From Muricea muricata (lineage: Eukaryota; Cnidaria; Anthozoa; Malacalcyonacea; Plexauridae): a stretch of DNA of 64,000 nt. Location of the stretch: the NCBI GenBank assembly GCA_963855995.1, contig OY979724.1:12446032-12510031 (forward strand). The letters are read 5' to 3'. The position numbers and the translations under genes are program-made. Shown here in pieces: positions 1,340-38,600 of the stretch; within the stretch, counting starts at the first letter, position 1; the number at the start of each line of letters is the position of its first letter. The notes beneath the pieces were generated by a model that was not told the DNA's origin, did not search any database, and was given only the letters and a program-made list of their open reading frames with translations.

Positions 1340-5975
<4,636 letters not shown>

Positions 5976-7419
5976 TGTGCTAAAATGTTGAGATATTTTT
6001 AACAATGAAAAATCTTTATACAGTGATGTGGTATTTATTCAAGATCTCTGCCAATAGCACTTACGTAGTTTTAAGGATATCACCCTCGCCACCAAACCTT
6101 ACTTTGATGTAAAGAAACATTCCATCAATGCAATGCTTGATTGACCTCAGGGAAAACCCACATAAATACTATCGGACAAAATTAAAGAAACAAGCATTCT
6201 TATTGGTCAAGTGTAGAGCCAATGAAAATCACTTTTCAGTGCATGTCCTAAAAACCTCAATGCGACATCCACCCACAGTAACTACTCCACCTAGACACTG
6301 GCTGAACTGTATTTTGCCACTGCACTCTGTAAGCACTGGACCATTACTATCAAGGTAAACAACAAAAATGATTGTGCATCTTTTGTTTCTATGGTAACAA
6401 ACATGGCATCAGTAGCAGCATTAGCAGACAAAGGTGACATGCAATAATCGATGCATCCGACCAAATATTACAGAAGCACAGTATAAAGCATAAAAATTAG
6501 ATTTCCTTCAAATTTCACAAACTTATATTAATTAAAGAGTAGACCATGAACGCCTTCGCTTGTAGACAGAAATTTTTTTACTTACTTTTCTGTGGGTGTT
6601 CAAGCTATCGGGTACCGCCACGTATAAAAACACTATATGCGTCGAGGTTTATATTTGCTCTTGTATAGGATCTGTTAGCCACATTGCTTCGTTTTGATTG
6701 GAAATATTCCAGTATTCTACATTGTTGTCATCAAAAGTTCAATACAATACCATGCAGTATGTAAAATTCCGGCGCTTTAATACCAGGGGTCTGTCTGATG
6801 CAATATTTTTCAATCCAAAAGAAACAATGTTATTTCACCATATCCTTGCTTAATTTCATTTTCAAATGAACGCTCTTCGCTCTCGCCCCAAGCCACGGAT
6901 TGCATCACCGCGCTGACATTTCGCGGCATCACTGCGCGGCATTTTGATGATCCCCGCCAAAAGCCGCGAATATTTCGTGCGTTAAATATTACTGGAAATT
7001 TTTCCTAGAAGTTTATAATTAGCAACTTTTGACAGTTCTTGTTTCTAAATTTTTTAAATGCCCAAATTTTTGATATGACGATCAAACAAAAATGGATGCC
7101 TAGGAAAGCAAGATAATTTAGATGTAAGAATATTGTATATTATTGCTTTTTATTTCAGTTCAATCCAAAGTTAAATATAATTTTTTGTAGTATCTAATGA
7201 TAGTATAATACACATAATATACAATAATAATACTATGTGTCCAGTTACTGCAGTTCACTTTGCTTATTGTCAGATGATTTTACTTGTATTTCCACTTTTT
7301 GAAAAGTTGTCTGACAAAAGCTGAAGTAACAGGTTAGATTGCAACAAAATGACTTAATATTAAGAGTTAATAGCTTTCTTTTCACTGGTATTTAAAGTTG
7401 GTTGCACAATCATCGAGAA
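5976..7419. other. Divergent intergenic region between GTPBP1 and the Josephin gene
   Basis: This 1.4 kb separates two divergent starts, so it should hold both promoters. Apart from the candidate GTPBP1 5' exon at 6065-6120, I see no coding exon. A GC-richer patch near 6880-6990 contains GCATCACCGCGC and GCATCACTGCGC about 30 bases apart. Confidence 0.4.
6065..6120 (-). other. Probable upstream exon of GTPBP1
   Basis: On the minus strand a good donor (AC|GTAAGT) sits at 6065/6064, and the GTPBP1 first coding exon has a matching acceptor at 5980. An ATG at 6120 opens MFLYIKVRFGG and, after splicing, stays in frame with the GTPBP1 start, giving a 20-residue N-terminal extension. It could equally be 5' UTR. 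The block also faintly resembles the start of C22orf15-type proteins, a match I consider weak. Confidence 0.35.
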
Positions 7420-8391
7420 ATGTACCATGAACGTCAAAGACTGCAATTCTGTGCTCTGCATGTTCTCAACAACCTGTTCCAAGATGAAGTCTTTTCCAAA
7501 CCAGAGCTCGATGATATTTGTTATTCGCTGAATCCTGATGCAACAATAAATCCTCATAAAAGCATGTTTGGATGGGGAAATTATGATGTCAATGTTTTGA
7601 TGATGGCATTACAGCTCAAAAATTACCGGTTCATATGGTTTGATAAGAGAAAGTATGTATAGTTTTGTTGTGTTTGGTACAATTTAGTACTACCATTTGC
7701 AATCTACTGTTAACCGAGACCAATCAAATGCTTTGTTTTATGTCCATTGACGTTTAGGCACATAAACGTCATGTCTTGTAATAACAATGGTTCGCATTTG
7801 CTCAGCCAAATAGTTGAAGTTTATGCTAGGATATTGCGATGTACAAGAATAATTCGATTTTGTAAGACAGGTGTATGATAAAAACTTATAATGATGAATG
7901 TCTTTCAATTCATTTAAAATAACATAGAGTTAAAGTAAGCAAGAAAACATGTAATTACAAAAAACAACATTCACTTGCCCAAATGTCATGTAAATAAACA
8001 TAAAACTAAATATAATTTGATTGGTCATGGTTAACAGTAGATTGCAAATTGTAGTTATGAAATAACTACTTTGACTTGCCAACATTCCTTACCTTTCAGA
8101 GAGTTGAGCACATTGAATCTAACCAACATTTATGGCTTGGTCATCAACAAGTTTTACAAACCAAAATGTCTCGGGTTAGCAATTCCAATAAAACGACGAC
8201 ATTGGATTGCTGTTCGCAAAATAGGAGAGAGATTTTACAACTTGGATTCAAGACTCGATGAGCCAGAGTGTATTGGCAACGATGAACATTTGATCAAGTT
8301 TTTGAAGTCTGAACTAGCAGTTCCAACGACTCAATTGTTTTTAGTTGTATCAAATTCACTACCTGAAGATGGCTGGATGACAGCTGAATAA
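7420..8391 (+). CDS. JOSD2: Josephin-domain deubiquitinase (JOSD1/2 type), two exons
   Basis: Exons 7420-7652 and 8100-8391 join in frame (DKR-K-ELSTL) to a 174-residue protein, near the 188-202 of JOSD1/JOSD2. It starts MYHERQRLQFCALHVLNN: Cys11 in QFCALH is the Josephin nucleophile, His112 in RRHWIAV is the catalytic histidine and FYNLDS (123-128) supplies the third catalytic residue. GNYDVNVLMMALQ is another family block. Josephins are cysteine proteases that remove ubiquitin; these small forms have no ubiquitin-interacting motifs. The ATG at 7420 is the only nearby ATG in frame. JOSD1 and JOSD2 split within vertebrates, so the symbol is approximate. An AATAAA overlaps the stop codon. Confidence 0.92.
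7693..8051. mobile_element. MITE in the Josephin intron
   Basis: Terminal inverted repeats of about 35 bases: TTTGCAATCTACTGTTAACC at the left and its reverse complement near 8030-8048, each followed by a conserved GACCAATCAAAT block. The element fills most of the 447-base intron. No transposase is present. Confidence 0.75.
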
Positions 8392-12455: not shown

Positions 12456-15014
12456 ATGAGCGAAACAGATGCCGTTCCTAATCTAGCTCCAATCAGTTCG
12501 ACTGATCAATCAAACACAGGGAATGTAACGCCCACCACAGAAGTGTCGGCCGGCTCAAAGAGATTGCATGTGACCAATCTACCATTCAGAATACGAGATA
12601 GTGACTTGCATGAGATGTTTGTGGTAAGTACATATGTATGGGGTGGCTTATGAAACTTTTGCATCTCTGTGGAACTAAGGTTATTTACGGTTTCTTGCAG
12701 AAATATGGTGAAATTATTGAAGCAGAAATCATCTATAATGAACGGGGTTCTAAGGTAATTGTATATAAGACTTTATGCACTTTTCAGTGTCTTGGGTATA
12801 ACCCTGAATTTGATGGACAATTTGTCAAGAAAATGATGAAATAGCTCAGGGCATGTCTGCTCTTGTGTCCCTAGGGGAAGACATTGACAAGCACATTAAA
12901 TAGAAAGTTCTACATGTTGCCATTTCCAGACAAATTGCCGATTGAAATTCATCTTCATCTGAGATTCATCAAAAAGGCCTCAATAGCGACCAATGTTTAA
13001 AACTACTACTGTTAACGGTCAAACTGCAGTTTTTTAAAGCATCTTCCCCCCTTATCAGTGAAGGAGTGAACTGTAATGACTTCAATTTGTGTGCTTGCTG
13101 TTAAAAAATACATTTCCTAAAAAATACATACTATCTTATGTCAGTGTATCAAACTTGTGGTTTGAAATTTAGACTATGCTCTCATTTGGATAATAATATC
13201 AAGGGTCAAAAATTCTGCTCACAATATTATGATGGGTGTGTACATGTGTATGTGTTGTGTGTATGTAGGGTTTTGGTTTTGTGACAATGGCTCAAGCAGC
13301 TGATGCAATGAAGGCGCGAGACAACTTAAATGGGACGGTTATTGATGGCAGAAAAATAGAGGTAATGTAGGTTTGTTGTTGATCAGATTAGAATTATCAG
13401 GAGATTATGTTTAGATTTATGTAGGATTAGGTTTATAAAATAGTATTAGATTTTGATGATTAAAAAATATAAAATAATTATTGTTAAAATGATGAAAATC
13501 AATCTTGATTTTGTGCATGTTGCATGCTCAATGATAATTTTCTTCATACAGGTTAACAATGCTACACCGAGGCCTAAACGAGGCCCTATGTCGGCCCAGA
13601 CCAACCGAGGAGCGTTTCATGGTACAGTGCATGCTGATGATGTACCTTGTTTGCATGTTGAAGACTTCTCTTGCATGTTGCATGCTGCACGTAATGTATA
13701 ACCAAGCATTCTTGTTGCATGGATCTTGGACATGAATGAAGAAATGTCAGGACTGGTGATGTATAATTGATTGGGGTTGCAGTCTTTGCCCCTGTATAGG
13801 GGTGTACAAAACAGTTGATGTGGGGAAACCTTGTTCATAAAACAGAGGTTGTATAAGGAAAAAATATGGTGAACAAAACTAGTAGAACTGATTTGGTTGT
13901 AAAATTGTAAAGGTGATGAAGTAAACATCTTACCATCACTCCTGTATTTTCAAAAATTTGACAAAACTGTATTTACTGGTGAGTTTGTCACCTCAAACTC
14001 AAAAATGTTTGAAAAAATAATTGGAGATAATTTCTTACACTCCTTCAGCTAATTAGTTAACATTTTATTAGGACATCGAGGTGGCATGAGAGGTGGACGG
14101 CGAGGGAGAGGCGGTATGGATGGTGGATATCAAAACCAAAGGTAACTTGAGAAAGAGTACTTCATATTGGCCAAGTGTTGTGGACTCCCTGATGACACAC
14201 CCTTGGTGTTTGTCAAGTGTATTTTTAGTACCATTTGATTTATTTGTGTTTCTAATCTTTTAGTTATTATCAAGCTGGATATAACCCTAACCAGGTATGC
14301 TATATTTTTGTCAGTTCATATGTAACAACTTCAATTTAGTGTGGGAAAATCAGTTTCAAATCGTTTTTTTTTAGTTGAAAAGGAAATTTGTGGTTTAAAA
14401 AGTGGGGGAGCTTGCAAAAACATAAATTTATCTCAGTTTCATAACAAATTTGATACTGGTATCTTATTTTAGGGGTACAGTGCCCCACCAAATCAAGATG
14501 CATATCGGTTAGTGATCACAGTTCTAATACATAGGATATTTAACTACCTAAATGATACAAATAGGATGTAGATTGTTCAAGTCATGGTTGTTATTTACTG
14601 CTCTTAGCTATGGTCAACAAGGACCACAAAGCTCTTATGGTGGAGGGTATGGTGGTGCATATGCTAATAGTGGAGGCTATCAGAATACTGGTGGGTATAC
14701 TGCTGGATATAATGCTGCAGGATATGCTGGGGTAAGTTATGTATTTATATATTAATTTTATATAAGTTGTCAAGACAAAACATGATATTAATATATATAT
14801 ATATATAAAAGCAATACTTTCATTCTAGGCATGATTTACAAAATAATACTGGTAAAAATTTCCTGAAAATTTTACTCGTGATGAAAAATTTTTGGGGCAC
14901 TTTGTATAATTAATGTATGACTTGAAATGATGTCTTTGCAAACTATTACAGGGCTACCAACCACAAGCACCTCAGCAGAGTCACACACAGGGTTACCGTT
15001 ATCAACCGTACTGA
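12456..15014 (+). CDS. RBFOX: RBFOX-like splicing factor with one RRM, 9 exons
   Basis: Exons 12456-12623, 12701-12754, 13269-13361, 13552-13621, 14072-14141, 14264-14294, 14473-14507, 14608-14731, 14952-15014; 235 residues. One RRM spans about residues 36-106: [14 protein letters not shown] contains RNP2, and NERGSKGFGFVTM contains RNP1 with Met in place of the usual final Phe. INGERGSK-like loop, [20 protein letters not shown] and the NERGSK signature are hallmarks of the Fox (RBFOX/A2BP) family, which binds UGCAUG in pre-mRNA and controls alternative splicing in the nucleus. The tail is RGG ([15 protein letters not shown]) followed by Gly/Tyr/Gln repeats ending YRYQPY. It is shorter than vertebrate RBFOX proteins. 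Seven TGCATG motifs flank exon 4, suggesting self-regulation. An AATAAA is at 15381. Confidence 0.88.
13514..13721 (+). promoter_or_regulatory. Cluster of seven TGCATG (Fox binding) motifs around RBFOX exon 4
   Basis: TGCATG occurs at 13514, 13521, 13628, 13652, 13672, 13679 and 13716 on the transcribed strand: two just upstream of exon 4 (13552-13621) and five within 100 bases downstream. (U)GCAUG is the known RBFOX recognition sequence. Another copy lies in exon 1 at 12607, 11 bases before its donor. Confidence 0.75.
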
Positions 15015-16963: not shown

Positions 16964-18639
16964 ATGAAAGGCAAAAGACAAAAAGTTATTGTAGTTTTTG
17001 ACGAGAAAGATCGCAGGTAAACACAATGGGAGAGTATATTTTGATGATATTAGTATAAACATGTAGTTTAATTCGATATTTTATGTGAAAATTTTACGAA
17101 TTTCTTTGATTTGGATTTAATTTATAAAACGTGAGTAAATTTATAGTGAATGTAAGCTATGATGCTATGGTGATGAATAGTCGTTTTATCTTGGCAGAGA
17201 TTTTCTGACTGGTTTTCGAAAAAGAAAGAATGCACGCAGAAAGAAAGCTCAAGAGGAAAACAGGAAGAAAGAAGAGGAAGCTCGGAAACAGCAACGAGAA
17301 GAAGTAAATATTAACAAATTTTATATTAGAAGTTGAATTTCTGTCTCAGACTAAAACTCGTGTGATAATGAATTTCCATCTGATATGAGTTCAAGATGGA
17401 AAACTGCCTTGACAAATGTATGGAATCATACATCATTTTCTGGAATATGGAATCATTTTCTATTGGATCTCATTCAACTTGATAAAAGTATAACAACTCT
17501 CAAATAGATCTCGAGCTAAATACTAATTTTTTAGAAACGAGAAGCTTTAAGGCGACGTGTAGAAGAATATGAAAACCAGCAAGGTACATTAAAAGCGATC
17601 AAGGAGGGTCTAAAGTTTTTCTATTCATTCCGTTCAGTAAAAATGCTAAATCCTGCATTTAGATATTGTTTTCATTCGTATCATGTTCGTTAATTAATCT
17701 TGTAAATCTCACAACTTTAAAAATTTTGAATGCTGCTCCCTATTTTCCCAAGTATCCTGTTTTTCAATGCTAAAATAAGCTCAATCCTGTGTCCTGCAAA
17801 ATCTGTTGAGGACCCTCATAACCTGTTGGGACCCTCGTATAGTATATACATAACACAGAACTTTTCTAAAATGTGCTTCCTTGAATTTTAATTCAAGCTC
17901 TCTATTGTAGTAAATGAAGATTTAGTTCAAAAACCTGAGAGCATTACCCATGACTTTGGGGAACATACAGTGACAGTTTCAACAATCACAGATGAAGACA
18001 TGGGTAGAGATTTTCTGACGTGTGCTAACGTAACACAGGTAGACATTTGATGAAGGCATTAATGTATAAACCATATTATTGGTAGGATTGACATGGCTAG
18101 ATCAAGGGACATCAAGCATATCAGGAAATGAGCATCCCTCCCCCTCCCATCATATCTCTTCCTGGAATTGCATTGAGCTTGAAGTGCTGATTTGGTAGAG
18201 AGACCCATCCTGGTATAGGATGATACAGGAATTGGTGTTAGGGTTGTTTTGTCTAGGTTTGCCTAGTTGGGACTTTGAATCTGTTTGCTGATTCCTTGGC
18301 ATTCTCACTTTCTGTTTTTTTATAACTCCATGTCTCATTTGTTGTGCTTTAAATCAGCATAAAGCGTGCTTCAAACATATGTTGGTTTTTAGAGCCATCC
18401 CAAAATGGCAGATCACAGAACAACCTCAGAAAATCACAAGCAAACAACAAAGTGAGTGTGACATTTGTTGTATGTTTGTGGAATATTAGTTGTATCGTGC
18501 CATCTCATTTTGTTTAATCTGTTTCAGAGAAAAATTACTTCGCAAGAGACAGTTTCACAAAAAAGCACAGAAACGAAAAATTCAGGCTATGAGCGATAAA
18601 AAGTCATCGAAACAAAAGAAAAGGGGAAGACAAAAATAA
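16964..18639 (+). CDS. NOL12: Nucleolar protein 12 (NOL12/Rrp17 family), 6 exons
   Basis: Exons 16964-17016, 17198-17303, 17535-17583, 17911-18038, 18393-18451, 18528-18639; 168 residues (human 213). The signature N-terminus is present: VVFDEKDRRDFLTGFRKRK followed by a long charged helix rich in Lys, Arg and Glu. EHTVTVSTITD in exon 4 matches the family core HTVTVTTISD, and the C-terminus is a Lys/Arg-rich tail (KRQFHKKAQKRK) typical of nucleolar targeting. NOL12 and yeast Rrp17 act in pre-rRNA processing at the 5' end of 5.8S/25S (exonuclease-related). The first ATG is clear. A polyadenylation signal lies at 18783. Confidence 0.9.
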
Positions 18640-19494
18640 CATGATAATCCTGTTACAATAACTGCCTGCCCTGCCTGTCAAGGCCAGCCTGACAATTTGG
18701 TCATGCGATGCAAATTTAAATGATTATCATTATTCATTTCTTTAGAAATTGATTCCTTATACGGTCTATAAACACAGAAAAAAATAAATTGCATTGCATG
18801 ACTAAATGTCAGGTAGGCTTTGCCACTGCTTGTTATGTAGGCTTAGATTTTTCTAGCTAGAAGTGCTAAATTATATATGTTTATGTAATTATGTTTATAA
18901 ATTTTTTTGGGGGGGGAGGATGGCAGGTGAAAATTTTATGTTGTGCACGGGGGGGGGGGGAGGGGGTAACATTGCCAATATCTATGGTAATAATTCCGTG
19001 TTCTCAGTATGGCGAATAATATAAATCGTAATTGAAGCCCTAACCCTAAACAACTTTTTATTTGTCATATTTTAACTAGATCTAACTAGATCTAGGGTGT
19101 GGATTAAGATTTAATTTTGCATTTGGAGAACATCATTACTGCCAGTACATACCCTACATCATTAGTGGAATTATTACTGCCAATACTATATGGCCAATAC
19201 ATTCACAACTTGTTATGTAGGATAAAAGATAATAAAAGCTAACATTTTTGCAACTAGAGGTGTAACTTGTATGTATGTTTATGTTTATAACCTTAATTTC
19301 TGGGGGGGGGTAGCAAAGATGAATTTTAAAATTTGCACGGGGGGGACGACGGTGTGATATTTTTGTTGGTTCCAATCTCCTTCTTTCACGCTGTTGTTTA
19401 TTGCACGTGTATGCAAGGATTTTACTAGAAAATGGCGGTTTGTCGATGAGTGAAACTTTATTGTAAATTTTGTATTCCAAATATCAAGACTTAC
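18640..19494. repeat. NOL12-UTP6 interval with a diverged direct repeat
   Basis: AATAAA at 18783-18788 probably ends the NOL12 transcript. Two related copies, about 18829-18965 and 19208-19345, share CTTGTTATGTAGG at the left, an AT-rich middle with TATGTTTAT, and a G-run then TTTGCACGGGGGG or GTGCACGGGGGG at the right. They look like two copies of one short element. No gene is seen. Confidence 0.55.
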
Positions 19495-22400: not shown

Positions 22401-25400
22401 CAGCCCTAGGGGATGTGAGGAACTTTTAAGAGGTTTAAGTTTAGCCTTTATCTCAGGATATGTGAGTCTTGCTATTTACCAATGTCAGCCCTTTCTCCTC
22501 AATTATTTTAAGACCTTGGGTAGAGGTCTGACCAAAGCTTGAACCCAGGCCTCCCAGCTTGAAAGACCACAACACTACACATGATGGTATAACATTAATC
22601 AAACATGATCTTTACTTGATCCTTTTTCAAGATTTTGTTGTCATTGCCAAAAATCTCAATCTTGTACAAAGATTCAGCTTTTCTCAGTCTCTTCCTATCC
22701 CACTGTTCCAGGATACTGAGGAGCCAACATCCAGTGATTTCATATCTGGGAAAACTGCAAGAATTGTTTACAAAAATGCAATAGAGAATATTCCAGGTAA
22801 TTAATGTATTGATCAGTCCTGGGTAGATAGATATGCTTTATCAGCTTCTGTTGTCATTTGTACTGCAAAAATCATAGAAATGGACTAGAAACGGAACCTA
22901 AGTAAATGCTGATTCGACATCCGTGATGCAATCTGATGCGTTTAATTTTGGAATCCTGTCTCTTCACTCGAAATATATTTTCAGGACTTGCTTGGTTTTT
23001 ACAGATTTTAAACAAGAACGATATTGTCTATATAAGAGCAAAAGTTTTCGGTTAAGATACATGGTTCCAAAGTAAAGCAAACTCGGACGTAACACGGACA
23101 TCGCTTGCGTTATAGTCTGCGTTTCGAGTCCAGTTTTTTTATTTTCCATGGTTGTGTTAATTTACTTTTAACATTTTTCAGATGACGTTGAATTTCGTTC
23201 GAATTTTATCGACGTTTATTATCTCTTTGATGATTGTGAAGAAGGAATTGATGAAGTTTACCAAAGGTGAATGATTGAACAATTTAGTCACCTCTATGAA
23301 ATTCATAAGTAGAAGATGTTGAAGATGTACAAGCTGAAAAATATGCTTGTCCATGGTCGGAATTGAACCAGCGACCTTTGGAATCCTAGCCCAATGCTTT
23401 GCCAACTGAGCTACGCAGTCCTCGGTTCATCCACGTGATATTTTAAAACTGACTTTCTAGGTCCTTCAATATTAACGTAATTTTAAATCCGACCATGATT
23501 TTATGAAGACGAAAGATGACTTGACTGACTGTGTAATATGTAAATTACAATTTAGAATGAAACGACGTTAGATTTAGGAATGCCCCCCCCCCCATCTAAA
23601 GATCCATACATGAAGCATGTTCCCCACCCCAAGCAGGATCACTACATGAAACAGTCCCCCCCCCCTTCCCGACTAAAATCGGTACATAAACAAATTTTTG
23701 TTCATTCTTTCTAGTTTAGCAGAAGATTTTCCAACCTCTGAGGAAGCATGGAATGCCATGGCCTGGCGTGGATTAAAGAAAGCGAAGTCTGTTAAAGCCA
23801 GCCCCTCCCAAATGACAGGTACTGACGAGCGTACTTAGACATGTATTCAAAGTCTGTTCCGTTCTTTTTTGAAATGCACATTTCGTTATCTCTAAGATAT
23901 AAAATGGCTTGAACTGGAAGCAGAAAGAGACGAAGTTTTTGAAGAGGCAGTAGAGAAAGTGGAAACAGGTAGTGTTTTAATACCTGAAAGATATTTGTAT
24001 ACACTGGAAACGAAGCTGGCCAAAGCACTAGTGGCATCGGTGATGCATCTTCTTGGTACGCTTTATTTTGAATCCGGTAGCTTTAGTTTTAGTATATTCC
24101 AGGACTTTGTCTATGCAAGGATCGACTTTTCAAGCTTTTTCAATGAGTAAACTGAAGGCCGCAAATCGCTATTGAATATTTTGGTAAAACTTCTTCAATG
24201 CACATCTACTGCTGATAGTCCTGCAAAATAACGCAGGTATTCAGTGTTGGTTTTTGGCTTTGTCTTACCCGAAGAGGCTTCAAAAGTTGATAATCACATT
24301 GAAATTAAAAAGGAAATACAAATTCCTAAAATATAAAGTGCAGAACTTTACAAAGTTGCACAACAAAGCGTATCAGGTCGTATCACGGCTGTAACATCAG
24401 CAACATTAGCGTTTTAGCTCGTGTTACCCCGTCCATCCTTTGATTGTCTGTAGTTGTCTTTATCATTTGTTTACCGATGAAGGACTTTCCCCAGCGACAA
24501 TGTTTGACTGACGAAACTCATGCAAACTTCTGGTTTTTAAGAGAAAATGTGGAACTACTACATCGAAGCTTGTTTAAGTGACTTGGAAAAATATTCTGAC
24601 CCGATGCTCGAAAAGGTCCAGTAAATACGTATATAAGACTTCATTTTATGACGCTGGCCCAGTGAACTCTAAATTAGACTGGAACGCTAACTTGGCCGCC
24701 ATTTTTGAAGCCAAATTGGTTATCAAGTTCAGTCCCCTTCTACTGTATTTCCCGGCGCGTTTGACACCATTTCTCTGGAAATGTACCGATATTTAATGTT
24801 TTTTTATTTTGATTTAAGAAGTAATTTTGTGGTTTATGAACTTCTAACCCAGTTTTCGATACAGCCTTTAGTTCTCGTTATCGTTCCAGTGTTGATAGAG
24901 TTCATTGCTTTGTCCTCATTAATGACGTAAGTTTGTTTTCATGTCGGGCGTCGTTTTAGCAAAAATATTTACAAAAAATAAAGCAAAGAAGATGTAATTC
25001 TGCCCATATAAGTTTCTCTCATGATGTGTTTACCCGTTTCATTACCATCTTAGAAAGTGAACGGATTACTAGAGATTTTCAAATCTGCTGATAAAGCAAA
25101 GAAACTCTCGGAGGAAAAATATTTACTTTGGGTGAGTGGTGTTCTGCCTGTCTAACTTCGTATCTGCCTATTTATGACCTTTTCTACCTGCGCCAATTTT
25201 TCTTTCTACCTTTTCACCCACCTAACTTTCTACCCACCTACCAGCCATGCTACTTACCATACTATGTACCTTGAACCTAACTTCCTAGCTTTCCACCCAC
25301 CTACCCTACTTTCCACTCACCTACCTACCTTTCTACCTACCTAGTTATCATTGTACTCTCACCTACCTATCCTTGTACCGACCTACCTACATTTGAACCC

Positions 25401-27904
25401 CTCTTTCTACCCATCCACCCACCCATCATTCCACACATGTACCTACCTACCTTTCTACCCACCTACCTATCTTCCATTCTCCCCAACCAACTTCCTGCCT
25501 ATACTATACCTATCAATCAATCTACCAATTTATCGTGCACGCTTTTCATTGTAGACTAAAACACTTACACAAAATGGGGACCCCAAAGAAGCTATGAAAA
25601 TTTGTAAAACGTCTTTAAACGTTTTCCCAAGTTCTGTTGTACTATGGCAGCAATATTTTATTTTACAGTTCGCAGGTAAATTACTTGTGCGGTATTTAAG
25701 CATTTTGAGCGAGCGCATAGATTTCCAATCAACGCTATTTCTGAATACTTTTTACTTGAATTACTTAGATCTCAAAGGTCTACCAACAAATTTTCTTGAT
25801 GAATTTTGTCAAGCTGTGAGCCAGCTTAACTCTGATCAGGTATGAAGTATTGGATAGCATTTGTATTTTAGCCATTCGGAAAAAAGAATAAATAAAGTTA
25901 GTTTAGTTCACGTTTCCTCCTGTGGTAACACTGGATCAATTGGAGGTGATCCCTAATGCACATCTAGAGAAATATTCTGAAACTGATAGAGTTTATCCAG
26001 TATAAATAAATTTAGTTTAGTTTAGGTTTCCTCCTGTAGTAACACAGGATCAAAAAGTGATTATCGTTGCTGGACCTCTCGGAAAAACAGTTTAGAGCTG
26101 ATAGAGCTATCCGGTTTAAATAAAGTTAGTTTAATTTAGGTCTCTTATGAAAAAGAGATAAGTCTCACAGAAACTCGAAAGTCACGGAAAACCTTGGGAG
26201 ATGACAAAGATACCTAAGACAAATAATGAAGTTGGTACAAGTAACTATGGAAATTTACCAACATTTCCTATTTTCAATTTTTGTCTAGGATGTTATGATG
26301 CTGTGGAATTATTCGTTGCAAGTTTTGACGACTCACGACTCCTCAGAATCATTACAGCATGTATATAATGTACGATTTTATCCAAAATTAACCCTACTTT
26401 ATGGTTCTACTAAACTTTTCTTCCATGACTTGCTCTTCTCTCGCTCCTTAGCACTGTATCACGGCATGTAAGGACAGTGAAATAATCACAGAAATCAACG
26501 GGTCTTATCTGGAAGTGATTCTCTTAAGAGATGGTATAAAAAGCGCGCGAAAACTATCTAAAAGGTTTGTGCGATTTTGTTAAACCCATATATACAGGCG
26601 TGGAAGTTGTATTTGTAAAAAGCATTTGCTCTTTGGATTGTTTTAGGTTGTGCAAAGAGGGCTCACTCACAGTTTCGTTTTATCAGAAATGTTTAAGCTT
26701 GGAACATTCACAGGTGAGATTTAGAAGATTGGAAGAATATCATTTTGCTGTGATTACTTCATTAGATTGCTTTACATTTTAGGCCGTTCCAAGCCTAAGA
26801 CATCTGCGAAAACTTTATGAAGCAGCGCTGGAAAGATTCGGCTGTGAAATCCCGGGTAAGTTAGCTGGGTTTTGTAGAAGCATGTGCCAGTAATCATTAA
26901 GGTCTGTTTACACCATTTCTAATGCAATAAAATTTACTTATTTACTCTTTTTGGACCAGTGGACTGTATGTGTATGTGTATGTGAAACTTTATTTAAACA
27001 CGCTGGCCTAGACAACTATTTACAGCTGATTTCCACGAGGGGCGTCACACTAATAAAAATATCTAAAGTATTTACAAAATCACAAGAAAAACAATTTACA
27101 ACAAAAATAATTTTCAAGTATATACAAATGCAGATAAAATGGTATATTTAGGTGCAGTGCAGTTTCAAACCGGCAATCGACTTCTTAAACGAGGAAACAG
27201 AGTCTGCTACCTTTAAATCTCGAGGCAGACTATTCCATAGCTTTGCGCCGTTGTACCCTAGAGATCGTTTTAGGTATTCGGTCTTTGGGTTTGGCAGAGT
27301 TAGATCTGTGCAATTGTTGCGCAAATTATATGAAGTTTGAACTTCATTTCTTTTATTAAATAGTTGTTTTAGATTTGGGGCGGAATAGTCATGAAAAATT
27401 TTATATATCAAAACCGCCTTGTTTCGAAGACGCCTTTTATCAAGTGTCTTCCACCCTAAGCTTTCCAAGACTAGTTAGAAATGTTCAGGAGAGAAATCAT
27501 ACTTTATACTTAGAACATTCGCTACGAATCTATTCGTTTACGTCTATAAGAAACAGTCACATTATCACTCCATAAACTCTTTCTGAACATGGGAAAAAGA
27601 GAGATCAGTTAGAGGCCAATCACAACGCGCCCTGTTGACAAGGTTTAAACTGGAGTCGAGACCAGATCAGCTGATAAACTAGAGTACGAAGGTCAGCTCA
27701 CGACGACTTTTGGACAGTCAGTCCGTGAGTAACATTCTGTCTCTATTCAAACTAGATTTTTGGTTGGACTACATCAAATTAGAACTGAATCATGGGGACT
27801 CAGAGACGGTCAGTAAGTTACATTGGCGAGCAATGAAGCGTTTGTCTGGAGACAATGTAGAACAATTCATAACTAAGTATACCTTATTACAGCACTCTTT
27901 ATAG
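19495..27904 (+). CDS. UTP6: UTP6, U3 snoRNP small-subunit processome protein, 23 exons
   Basis: Exons 19495-19586, 19829-19913, 20407-20448, 20531-20602, 20799-20867, 21017-21080, 21589-21649, 21733-21790, 22095-22127, 22253-22300, 22712-22796, 23182-23266, 23715-23818, 23897-23968, 24542-24615, 25054-25131, 25555-25675, 25769-25839, 26289-26369, 26452-26564, 26647-26713, 26783-26855, 27756-27904. Total 598 residues; human UTP6 has 597. It opens MAEYVFQNVEGMLPELEEME, has KRRTAFEYKLQRRI, the HAT-repeat tryptophan blocks (LWLQYIEFCK, LWIMAAKYEFEDR, MWNYYIEACL) and ends LDYIKLELNHGD...HWRAMKRL. HAT repeats scaffold the 90S pre-ribosome, so the role is 18S rRNA processing in the nucleolus. The exon 15 donor (GTCCAG) is weak but is the only one that keeps frame. 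AATAAA is at 27989. Confidence 0.93.
19930..20007 (+). repeat. Short C/A tandem repeat after UTP6 exon 2
   Basis: About four imperfect units of a C-run, an A-run and TGA, 19-22 bases each, beginning 16 bases after the exon 2 donor. Confidence 0.7.
23349..23421 (-). repeat. tRNA-like sequence (SINE head or tRNA pseudogene)
   Basis: On the minus strand, 73 bases carry a perfect A box (TAGCTCAGTTGG) and B box (GGTTCAATTCC), a 7-base anticodon loop with AGG and a paired anticodon stem. The acceptor stem pairs badly (two mismatches, two wobbles) and the T stem has a mismatch, so a working tRNA-Pro is unlikely. The promoter boxes could still recruit RNA polymerase III. It lies in a UTP6 intron. 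Confidence 0.6.
25140..25535 (+). repeat. Degenerate CTAC/CTTT/CCAC tandem repeat
   Basis: About 400 bases of the UTP6 intron after exon 16 are built from CTACCTACC, TTTCTACCC and CACCTACCTA words, an old pyrimidine-rich satellite. Confidence 0.75.
25888..26125 (+). repeat. Two-copy tandem repeat, anthozoan type
   Basis: Two units of about 113 bases each contain AAATTTAGTTTAGTTTAG or AAAGTTAGTTTAGTT, TTTCCTCCTGTAGTAACAC, GGATCAA and CTGATAGAGTTTATCC or CTGATAGAGCTATCC. I recall this motif from many coral sequences, which supports a hexacoral origin. Confidence 0.65.
26965..27480 (-). mobile_element. 5'-truncated LINE, end of the reverse-transcriptase ORF
   Basis: On the minus strand, 27468-27148 encodes 106 residues including ESLGWKTLDKRR, LYNLRNNC-like YNLRNNCTDL and GAKLWNSLPRDLK, the C-terminal tail seen in CR1/L2-like cnidarian retrotransposons. 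A 3' UTR and a (CACATA)n-like microsatellite end at about 26965 follow. No catalytic RT motif remains. It is dead and antisense to UTP6, within its last intron. An exact 5' edge was not found. Confidence 0.7.
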
Positions 27905-33734: not shown

Positions 33735-35692
33735 ATATTGGATCGCCTCGTTTCCGTGTGTTGATATTTAGGCGGCATTTCTTTCATCTTCTTTGTCAAT
33801 AGTTCCGAAATTTGTGACCTATTTGACCAAGTACTGTTTGTTTGTCAAGTCTAATATAGTCCGATAAGTCAGGATGTTGAAGCTCAAATGTATAACAAAA
33901 AAATCCCTTGAGTTTTTCCTCAATTTTGAATGACATAGTGGCACACAGACACTTTCACTAGCCAAGGTTGTCCTGATCTAAGTTTTAGCTCATATAATTA
34001 GATCATACTAAACATGAAATCGAGACAAAATTTCTTTTGTTCCTTATTGCAACTTATAGTTAATTCAACACTGTCTTTTCTACTAGTTTAAATGCAAAAT
34101 GAAAATCACAGCAAGCATGAAATCTTGTGATCTTGTGAAATCGAGAAAAATATGTTGTTCTGAGTATTTGATTGCCTCTAACGCGTGCCAGATAGCATCG
34201 GTTTAAGATCAGCTCGACCTTTCGAGGGCCAGACTAGTGACGTATGCTGTATCGATGACTGATCAGCCATAATAAAAAAAAAAACTTTAAACCCAAGGGT
34301 TTAAATTTATGTATTTATATAGATATGCCACACAAGTTAATAATAGTTTCTGAAACGTGGGTGTCCAGTGTAGTTGGTGTTATTTACCAACACAAAATAA
34401 TCGTTTTAATTAAATTTATTATATTATTTATTATTTCAATACAAAGTATTAGTAACAGAATATAAGGGTGATTTAAAGTTGTCGAAAAGTCGATCTTGCC
34501 AAATTTTATTACTTAAAAACACATTGCTTAGTTATCTAAAACTGATTAGGATAAATAATCACTCGATTGTTAGACTTATTATAGTTACATTCAAACATTC
34601 GATAGAGCCAAGTTTAGAGCCAATACGAGTCTGTTCGCAAGAACAAAAATACGTTCGAAGCTTAAATTGGAACTAACCTTCCATTCGAAAGAACGCAAAA
34701 GGTGTAACAAATTGGAACCCGATAGTTCACGGGCGCCATTTTGATTGGTTCTCACTGATTAACAATGTCTACGAAATTAACACATCGTTCGAACAGGTAA
34801 CCTTGCTGGCATAATTTTTGAAATCGCGTTATATTTGCGGCGTAGCTGTTTTAATTTTCTCGGTTTTATTTCACATTAGCTATACCAACAGGCGTTATTG
34901 CATCCCATGGTCGATGATGAGCTCCGAAGATCTTTGAGCAAGCCGCGGCTAGTAGGAGAATAATTAGGAGAAACTGCGTCGACCAATGGAAGGCAAACAG
35001 GCTCGTAGCCGACCGACTATAAGCTTTATCACAGCTGCCGTTAATTATGTAGAATCATCAGCATGTGTGAGGCTTCGAACCACGTGGAACAGATCGAACA
35101 CTGGCAAGCTGGCTTGTGATTGGAGCGGCGTGTAAAAGCCTTTTGACGTCTCATCCAAGTCAATTGATGGAACTAACACCGCCTCTTTACGGTCGGCGTT
35201 CTTTGAACTTCTACCGCCAAAGGCAACTCGCAAAGTTTCAACAATTCTGACCTGACGCCCACCAGTCAGAAAGCTTTTCGGCAAGCTTCGATGTACACAC
35301 TGGCTGCGTCGAGCGGCCTACATTCTGGGCGAGATCGTCTTGTTAAGACAACGCTAATACACCAGAAACTCCTATCGTTATCAACTATAACCTCAACTTC
35401 ATATAATGCTCTCATCTTAACATTTAACGTGAAGCACTACATCTTATGTTTATAAAATATTTGCTTTGAACCGAAGCGGCAAGGCTTTTGATCTGCTGTG
35501 AAAAGAAAGGGCCGAACTCAGTCGAACTCTTTAGTTTATCAACGCGACGCTTGGGAAAGGAGTTGTTTTGAAACGAGAGAGGTAGATAGACCTAGACTCG
35601 TGCTGTAAAGGGACATTTCGGATTATTCAACGTCATTTAAGCTGACCTCGCGTGTACATGTGATTTGTATTGATATTCAGAAACAAGCTAGA

Positions 35693-38600
35693 ATGTCGAG
35701 TGATTTCAGCGACGCGAATCTTACAGGTTTGAGACCAGCTCCGGCTGGACAGGACTCTGATTCGAGTGTGTGTAGTCACTCTGAGAAAACGCTGGGCTAC
35801 AGTCCCGTACCACGAAGACCATCGAGTAAGGATATGTACGAAAACACGGGCGATCTAAAGGATTCGTATACGGATGATATGATAGCGCCGCAAGGATTCG
35901 AGCCCGAAGGTAGCGCCACAAAACCAAAATTTTGTGAAGGCAGCTCGACGTTTGTGGACTTCATTTCGGACCGAAATGGCTTCGCGTTGTTTCGGGAGTA
36001 TCTACGGGAACAAAAGCATGAATCCCTACTCGATTTTTGCCAATCGTGCGAGGAATTTAAGCGGTTAGCAAACACAGGGTCAAATCTCGCTACTCACAAA
36101 GCCAGCTCAATTTACAATAATTACTTGCATTCAAAACATCTCTGTGCGAATATTTTGAAAGACGATGTTTATATTCGTGCGAAATTGAAGCACAAACTGA
36201 GCGGAGGACAGCCGTTGAGCGAGACGCTATTCGATCATGCCAAGCAATGCATACTGCAATATATTACCGAGTTCCACTACGGCAGGTTTCTCGGCTCCGA
36301 TATTTACATGCGTTCTGATGTTTCAAAAGCGTTTCAATCGAAAGATCGTATTTCAACGAAGTGTGTTCCTCGTTATGGACCTAAAGGCTTGCCTCCTTTA
36401 CTCGAAGAGAAGGTGTATGAACAAAATGCTGCCAATTGGCCTTCTCCTGATGTGAATACAAAGCCATTAGGCCGAGCAGTTGACGATCGTGAAGAGTAAG
36501 TAAACTTGTGCTTGTATGTTATTGTGCGCGGCGTGCGTTACAAAGGTATTCTGTAGTGGCTAAAAATATGTTTTCTTTTGAGGCCATCCTCGTTAAACAA
36601 AACGAGGGTAAATAGTTTTATTGTGTAGCAAAAGAGCCCTCAGTTTTCGTACACAGAGAGATTTGAGTGGTGAAAAACATTTCTGAATCTCTATTATGTT
36701 CTTTCTTTCGTGTCGGCGTTTCTAAAAGTCGCAATTAATTCAACTCAAGTATGTCTGTGTAGGTTAAAATAGCCTTCCGCTGGTTGTGTCCCAGCGATGG
36801 ACGGGTTGCGATGGAGCTAAAATCGCAACCAATTGAAGATTTGTGTTCCGTATCGCATAGTGTGAGTGTTTTGTCAACTTTTGTAGGAAAACAAACTGAG
36901 GATGCTGCAATTAACATAAACCCCTGTGAATTGCTGATTTCGACTTTGGCGGCATACAAATGAGCTTATTTCGTTTCATTGAACTTCTCGTCCGGCTCCG
37001 TTCGCCGTGGCCCTATGTTTGTAATCTGTACTTAACGTGAACAAACATTACATATGTAGCCCAAGCCCTCGTAAAGCTCTTTAACCTCTCATGAGAAAGA
37101 CTATATCAGTTTTCCGTATGTGCTGACCCTAGCGGCAAAAACTATCCTGTAAAAAAACGCACTGTGCGGAAATCCACGCCGAGGTTTGGATAAAATTATA
37201 TCGTCATGATAGAAAATCTGCACAACTAAAGCACTTGTGAAGGGGTTTTTGAGCACAGGGATTGACCAAATTGTCTTCACACACAGATTTCGCCGACTCG
37301 TTTATTAAATGACAATAAATTTGCATAGCAAAAACACCGTTGGTGTTATTGTGGTCAAGAGCTCCTCTTAAAAGTTGCCGCTTCGTCGGTGTCTCAGATA
37401 TTTCTAACTCTGTCGGGAGCGTGTTCCGCTTTTTGGTTTGTTTATAGCCATACGATCAGCTCGAAAATCCGCCGCAATCTCTGCGGAGTTAATACCAAAG
37501 TTGGTTAAACCCATGCCTTGAGATAATCTGCGTTCAGATCGTCTCGGGTTTTTTTAACCTGGCATGTTTGAATTAGTGCTTTTCAGAACAAAAATATACG
37601 CGTTTTTTTTTTTAGTTTTTCCATGCGGCTTCGATTGAGCGCATAGAATGCACTCCTATTGACAATGTGTGCAAATTGGAGACACATGTTTTTCTTGCAA
37701 AACACATCGGATGTAACACTGCTTAAAAATGCTCCGATGTTTTGTGTTCCCTGTAGAAAACCATTTAAAGTGGCGAAATTGTTCTTAACGATAATTGCTG
37801 CATGGTATTGTAACAATTTCGGTTCAAGAACTCTTCGCTCGAATGTTTTGGCTTTGAAAAAAAAACATGTAGTAAAGTGACACTTGAAAGTAAAATACCC
37901 CGCAAGGCATAAAAAATTGTTAACTTTTTCGGTTCAAAGATGCGTTTCGATTTTGATTTCAATAGAGGAACACTGTCTAATGTTGGCTGTGCCTCATAGG
38001 CCACGCAAGCGCCTCTTGCGCTAAAGAATTAGCACCGAGCCAGATTTAAGTATCGGCCTCTTTATATTAAATGGCAATCAGTTTCACAAACGCAAGCCGA
38101 AAAATATCAGAGGCGATTTGATTATATCATCTTATTCAATATTTGTCTTGTTTAAATGGTGCACACACCGACTTGTATACGGCACAGAAGCAAACATTTT
38201 GTCTGTCCGAATCAATTAAACTCGCTGCGAATTGATCTTGGCTCGCAGATTAAGTAATTTACATTACACTATCATCATGTAATGGTTTTAGATGTGATGT
38301 TCTTAAACTATATGCTGGCAATTTAGCCTTTAGTATGTATTTTGTATGCTTTTAGCCTTGATGTTTCTTTGTGTTTGTATAAATTGGCTGTGCAAATATG
38401 GGGACTCTTTAAAGCTACCATAAAACTATAAAAATTATTGCATCTAAGTTGTTCATCTTGTTATAACTATATATAAATATATTAGGTATTCAATAGTGTA
38501 CAATATTATAGTCGCCCTGTATTGTATTCCAAAGTGCATAATTGTTGCAACTCTATGCTAAACCTTCATCTTTTTTTCTAGATATGTACCAGTAAATTTG

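Follow-up and report, generated by a model that had tools for sequence, protein, structure and literature searches.

An RBFOX-like gene carries seven copies of the word TGCATG within 208 nt around its fourth exon, raising the question of whether the gene's own protein uses these words to control the splicing of that exon. The gene lies within a 64-kb stretch of DNA that was analysed as a whole (referred to as the window), and its coding part extends from position 12456 to 15014 on the + strand. Nine exons (168, 54, 93, 70, 70, 31, 35, 124, and 63 nt) join via GT-AG borders into one reading frame of 235 aa; this model describes the coding part without defining its start codon or any untranslated exons further upstream. 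In the encoded protein, an RRM precedes an RGG and Tyr/Gly/Gln-rich tail, and the RRM is split over exons that include the 54-nt exon and the 93-nt exon 3 (13269–13361, + strand), which encodes the RRM core (GFGFVT...) and is as long as the RRM exon that the vertebrate –93 isoform lacks.

The assignment of this gene to the Fox family, already made in an earlier model-made reading of the letters (referred to as the sequence-only reading), was upheld by comparison with PDB sequences, Pfam, and the human RRM, on which the assignment rests. Specifically, 52 of 78 RRM residues are identical to human RBFOX, and the five best PDB matches (227 distinct sequences; E-values of about 1e-31) were 2cq3, 2n82, 7vrl, 4zka, and 2err, i.e., one chain named RNA-binding protein 9 (2cq3; presumably the old name of RBFOX2) and four RBFOX1 or ataxin-2-binding protein 1 chains (the latter being what we take to be the old name of RBFOX1), followed by a poly(A)-binding protein in sixth and C. 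elegans ASD-1 in seventh place. At the 18 positions that we assume, with their numbering, to be the RNA contacts of the RBFOX1 RRM, 15 residues are identical to human RBFOX1, and the three differences (S122T, I124L, and F150Y) are conservative. Judged by these comparisons, the RRM of the encoded protein is closest to RBFOX, and the protein presumably binds the TGCATG words in question. At an E-value of 0.001, Pfam returned RRM_1, plus RRM_5 below its own cut-off, and no C-terminal Fox-1 domain, the RGG and Tyr/Gly/Gln-rich tail being found instead; this Pfam domain occurs in vertebrate RBFOX members and is accessory rather than family-defining. In mammals, a Tyr-rich tail nucleates aggregation required for including specific exons (Ying 2017, as cited in an excerpt of PMC7787662). 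Searches for relatives of the 235-aa protein yielded 24 (viral_contigs) and 71 (genome_contigs) pattern stretches, none of which was confirmed, an outcome unsurprising for collections of viral and prokaryote sequences.

A direct word count recovered all seven TGCATG words that the sequence-only reading had placed between 13514 and 13721 (208 nt, + strand), and recounting their positions reproduced the claimed split into two words upstream of exon 4 (13514 and 13521, spanning 13514–13526 and ending 32 and 25 nt before the exon) and five downstream (13628, 13652, 13672, 13679, and 13716, spanning 13628–13721 and lying 6, 30, 50, 57, and 94 nt past the exon). The upstream pair sits where the branch point and polypyrimidine tract of exon 4 would be expected, and the first downstream word starts at intron position +7. 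A TGCACG at 13686 (+ strand), which includes the secondary word GCACG, lies within the downstream group. Successive words are unevenly spaced (7, 107, 24, 20, 7, and 37 nt), and the cluster is confined to introns 3 and 4, the word count having found no TGCATG in any of the gene's six remaining introns. Exon 1 holds two more, both coding: the one reported earlier at 11 nt before the exon 1 donor is real (12607–12612), and a second one that had been missed lies at 12565, where it encodes Leu-His-Val of the conserved KRLHV, so that the protein can explain this word.

The chance figure of about 0.05 words given earlier corresponds to 208/4096, and at the window's own + strand rate the expectation for 208 nt is about 0.07 or 0.10, depending on whether the seven words are left out or counted in. 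Since TGCATG is not enriched window-wide (46 observed vs. 46.8 expected on both strands), the excess at 13514–13721 is local, with seven of the 30 words on the + strand of the window falling in the cluster. Across 800 simulated 64-kb windows (Markov orders 1 to 4, 200 each), the maximum was three TGCATG words in 208 nt vs. the seven found here, and 20,000 simulations of introns 3 and 4 from their own composition reached at most four, or three when trained without the words. Among 180 words of the same letters, the runner-up was GTTGCA with four copies, which partly overlaps the TGCATG words. Moreover, with a threshold of at least four (T)GCATG in 500 nt, taken from an excerpt of PMC12435732, the cluster is the only case of at least four TGCATG on either strand of the window. 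Five of the window's 4072 distinct 6-mers attain seven non-overlapping copies in 208 nt, i.e., TGCATG, the words TACCTA, CCTACC, and ACCTAC inside a degenerate tandem array (25284–25473), and GGTGGT, the last near 286, where GGY-type repeats are encoded.

Exon 4 itself (13552–13621, + strand) is bounded by AG and GT and encodes VNNATPR, with which the RRM ends, as well as the first part of the linker, and its length of 70 nt, confirmed in the coding model, is no multiple of three. Beyond what had been noted earlier, its donor (AUG/GUACAG, exon/intron; 13619–13627, + strand) is weaker than the gene's seven others. It has both the lowest weight-table score (–1.29, the other seven ranging from 0.74 to 5.71) and the weakest U1 pairing (–4.1 kcal/mol, the other seven ranging from –4.9 to –9.8 kcal/mol), as judged by simple scoring not made for this species and using a metazoan donor weight table and a U1 end as we assume them to be. 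Skipping of exon 4 was claimed to shift the frame and remove the RGG/Tyr tail, which is borne out by the model; the shift had also been placed just after the RRM, but this was wrong, as VNNATPR would be lost as well. Since skipping would delete this end of the RRM, including positions that we take to be RNA contacts, the resulting product should bind RNA poorly. Translation of the skipped form would run into a TGA after five codons (...RKIEDIEVA*; 14087–14089, + strand), which leaves 52 nt up to the exon 5/6 junction and 242 nt up to the last one. Given the 50–55 nt rule stated for mammals in an excerpt of PMC3126832, the exon-4-skipped message is likely a target of NMD, if that rule holds in this animal.

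We consider it probable, with real room for doubt, that the gene's own RBFOX protein controls the splicing of exon 4 via the cluster, which would serve as a binding platform at the RNA level, and we infer that exon 4 is alternatively spliced. The RBFOX protein would bind the TGCATG words around exon 4 of its own pre-mRNA, where the five downstream words would help U1 to use the weak donor, leading to inclusion and full protein, and the two upstream words would favour skipping, leading to a damaged RRM and a transcript exposed to NMD. The net effect would be an autoregulatory switch on the dose of functional RBFOX. The computed local fold leaves the words largely base-paired (mean unpaired 0.19–0.37 in the longer context), which could lower RBFOX binding.

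Such a switch had been proposed by the sequence-only reading, and the anatomy allows it, but the words point both ways, so that the sign of the loop cannot be read from them. An excerpt of PMC5577181 gives the position rule that RBFOX bound downstream of an exon usually leads to inclusion and RBFOX bound upstream to skipping; the two upstream words then fit skipping, and the five words downstream of the gene's weakest donor fit inclusion. The rule moreover has exceptions, one being C. elegans unc-32, where a FOX-1 site is associated with skipping of its upstream exon (excerpt of PMC7787662). We lean slightly to the inclusion-promoting side, and the probability that remains beyond the two signs of the loop belongs to readings without control of exon 4 skipping. 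An RBFOX-dependent exon would be expected to have just such a weak donor with five strong words behind it, and if the inclusion of exon 4 depends on RBFOX, the loop would be positive, in that functional RBFOX would yield more functional RBFOX. A loop that is mainly positive, with RBFOX promoting exon 4 inclusion, is tentatively put forward. Somewhat doubtful is its self-sustaining version, in which RBFOX would be needed to include exon 4, whose donor is weak and whose sequence completes the protein's RRM and tail, and the upstream pair would cap a high dose. If true, such a loop would work as an on/off latch in the manner of Sex-lethal, its sign would be the reverse of that of vertebrate Rbfox, and its host would perhaps be an early-branching animal.

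Self-regulation would also cover a mainly negative loop as in vertebrates, the probability of which is part of that given to self-regulation as a whole: excess RBFOX would cause exon 4 to be skipped and the message to be truncated and degraded, by means of the two upstream words, which end 25–32 nt short of the exon, and of the first downstream word, located 6 nt past the donor, which, starting at +7, could hinder U1. The NMD-type stop produced by skipping agrees with this, as does the negative action of mammalian Rbfox on Rbfox2 via RRM exon skipping or NMD exons (excerpt of PMC3126832); five of the seven words, however, lie downstream within 94 nt, on the usual activating side, and with a donor that is already weak, strong repression seems less needed, so that we regard a negative loop as rather unlikely. 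The words could instead select between the exon 4 donor at 13622 and a second possible one that the sequence-only reading had passed over (CAC/GUAAUG, exon/intron; 13691–13696, + strand), yielding a short linker or one longer by 23 residues with the frame kept. The two donors have similarly low scores (–1.29 and –0.69), and the use of the second would lengthen exon 4 by 69 nt, i.e., 23 open in-frame codons with four TGCATG words between the two donors. This choice is nevertheless improbable: 23 codons stay open by chance in about 1 of 3 cases, (61/64)^23, the donor at 13691 pairs poorly with U1 (–1.7 kcal/mol), and the two upstream words would be left unexplained. Just as improbable is that the cluster governs another part of the transcript, be it the 93-nt exon 3, a speculative 179-nt cryptic exon in intron 4 (13800–13978, + strand), or transcript retention or stability. 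The candidate cryptic exon, likewise passed over in the sequence-only reading, would bring in stops and combines a pyrimidine-rich acceptor before 13800 with the best-scoring donor of intron 4 (CUG/GUGAGU, at 13979). Rbfox3-induced cryptic exons lie beside the RRM exon of mammalian Rbfox2 (excerpt of PMC3126832), and RbFox clusters are able to act from up to 25 kb (excerpt of PMC12435732). Donors as strong as that at 13979 occur, however, about 0.125 times per kb of strand (about 1 per 8 kb), such that about 0.06 are expected in the 450-nt intron 4 and its presence is only mildly unusual. As for exon 3, the nearest word in intron 3 lies 152 nt past it.

Two further explanations turn on repeats and on RNA structure. 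The cluster might be no RBFOX site at all but a small expansion of a self-complementary word (a DNA-level element, slippage, or micro-duplication) that coincidentally lies in a Fox gene. A 15-nt unit, TGCATGTTGCATGCT (13514–13528, + strand), is repeated exactly on the other side of exon 4 (13672–13686), with an 80% copy at 13652–13666, and two of the seven words fall within a tandem stretch of 2.7 copies of TTGCATG (13671–13689, 19 nt, score 31), so that the seven words are not wholly independent. Small duplications may thus have helped to build the cluster. In addition, GCATGC is palindromic, and three of the words therefore also read GCATG on the opposite strand, and the window's other 6-mer clusters arise from repeats. 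Against a mere expansion stand the irregular spacing of the words, the merely 15-nt extent of the repeat and low score of the tandem stretch, and the location of the cluster in a gene whose protein family binds TGCATG, and we consider it quite unlikely. The idea that the words stem from a longer duplication was rejected, as the 15-nt repeat has no ungapped extension and a scan of 13300–14100 for tandem arrays found none besides the 19-nt one. Alternatively, the upstream and downstream words might base-pair with each other over exon 4, thereby looping it out. One folding window has a centroid with a helix between the two 15-nt units, and the duplex of the flanks (–27.8 vs. a shuffle mean of –20.7) was equalled in 40 of 1000 shuffles. 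The overall fold, however, has a z-score of –0.33, and only about 0.8 cross-exon pairs are expected in the longer context; with the helix mostly lost in the longer window, the loop-out was rejected as highly improbable.

Returning to control of exon 4 by the gene's own RBFOX protein, one of the closest known parallels is the auto- and cross-regulation of vertebrate Rbfox (Damianov and Black 2010, via the citing PMC3126832 and PMC5577181, excerpts). Mammalian Rbfox represses the in-frame RRM exon of Rbfox2 and promotes NMD exons there (excerpt of PMC3126832), and the rat –93 form, which lacks the 93-nt RRM exon, has been described as acting in a dominant-negative manner, and RBFOX sites surround that exon (excerpt of PMC5577181). 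Shared with the vertebrate system are an RBFOX protein, GCAUG words around an exon of an Rbfox gene, and an RRM-defective product or NMD, which is predicted here. In vertebrates, however, the 93-nt exon is skipped in frame to give the dominant negative, or cryptic exons are included, whereas here the words, mostly downstream ones, flank the next exon, which is 70 nt, non-triplet, and followed by a weak donor. The 93-nt exon is present, but intron 2 holds no TGCATG and intron 3 none closer to exon 3 than the 152 nt given above, and skipping of exon 4 would not keep the frame but shift it.

Other systems offer partial likenesses. In C. elegans, FOX-1 acts dose-dependently via several clustered sites, and intron VI of xol-1, like the introns here, brings several GCAUG and GCACG words together in one intron; there, the words give dose-sensitive, non-productive splicing, as they might here, and FOX-1 differs in acting on another gene, with intron retention or use of another acceptor as the outcome (all from an excerpt of PMC7787662). 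Drosophila Sex-lethal is an RNA-binding protein that acts at two adjacent introns of its own pre-mRNA and can lock its own expression on (excerpts of PMC12179342 and PMC7787662). Sxl, however, skips a male exon, whereas RBFOX would here need to include a required one, and Sex-lethal-like positive autoregulation is hinted at by the anatomy only (i.e., the weak donor and downstream words). Mammalian intronic (T)GCATG clusters, with at least four words in 500 nt, resemble the present one in count, but those tested in PMC12435732 (excerpt) are deep-intronic and up to 25 kb from the exon, and the one described here is exon-proximal and lies inside an RBFOX-like gene.

What is known, then, is the regulation of vertebrate Rbfox genes by Rbfox (excerpt of PMC3126832) and the dose effects of clustered sites in nematodes (excerpt of PMC7787662); the exon concerned, the predicted frame shift, and the possible sign of the loop would be new. 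Among the matches listed from open-licence literature (titles and abstract beginnings), none dealt, for cnidarians or other early animals, with splicing by RBFOX or with its self-regulation. If an early-branching animal also self-regulates RBFOX, via another exon, by shifting the frame, and with a sign that may be opposite, this self-control would be either very old and rewired or have arisen repeatedly.

The neighbourhood of the gene in the window was surveyed as well. A GTPBP1/2-like GTPase gene (1340–6000, – strand) was recognised by eye from translations, its piece 1340–1726 having no Pfam match; a Josephin-domain gene (7402–8390, + strand) matches PF02099 in piece 7402–7653, and a NOL12/Nop25 gene (17199–18640, + strand) matches PF09805 in piece 17199–17300, the outer limits of all three being set by eye. 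Since the human genes GTPBP1, JOSD1, RBFOX2, and NOL12 are all, as we assume, located on chromosome 22q12-q13, these three neighbours and the RBFOX-like gene may form a very old linkage group. Further along, an open stretch at 35660–36499 (+ strand) contains an RGS domain (PF00615) and looks Axin-like by eye. At the edge of the window, a C-terminal coding stretch with GGY and YQQ repeats that ends in a stop (250–693, + strand) belongs to a further protein of low complexity and lies about 12 kb away from the RBFOX-like gene. The degenerate tandem array mentioned above (+ strand) comprises 9.4 copies of a CCTACCTTTCCACCCACCTA-type unit.
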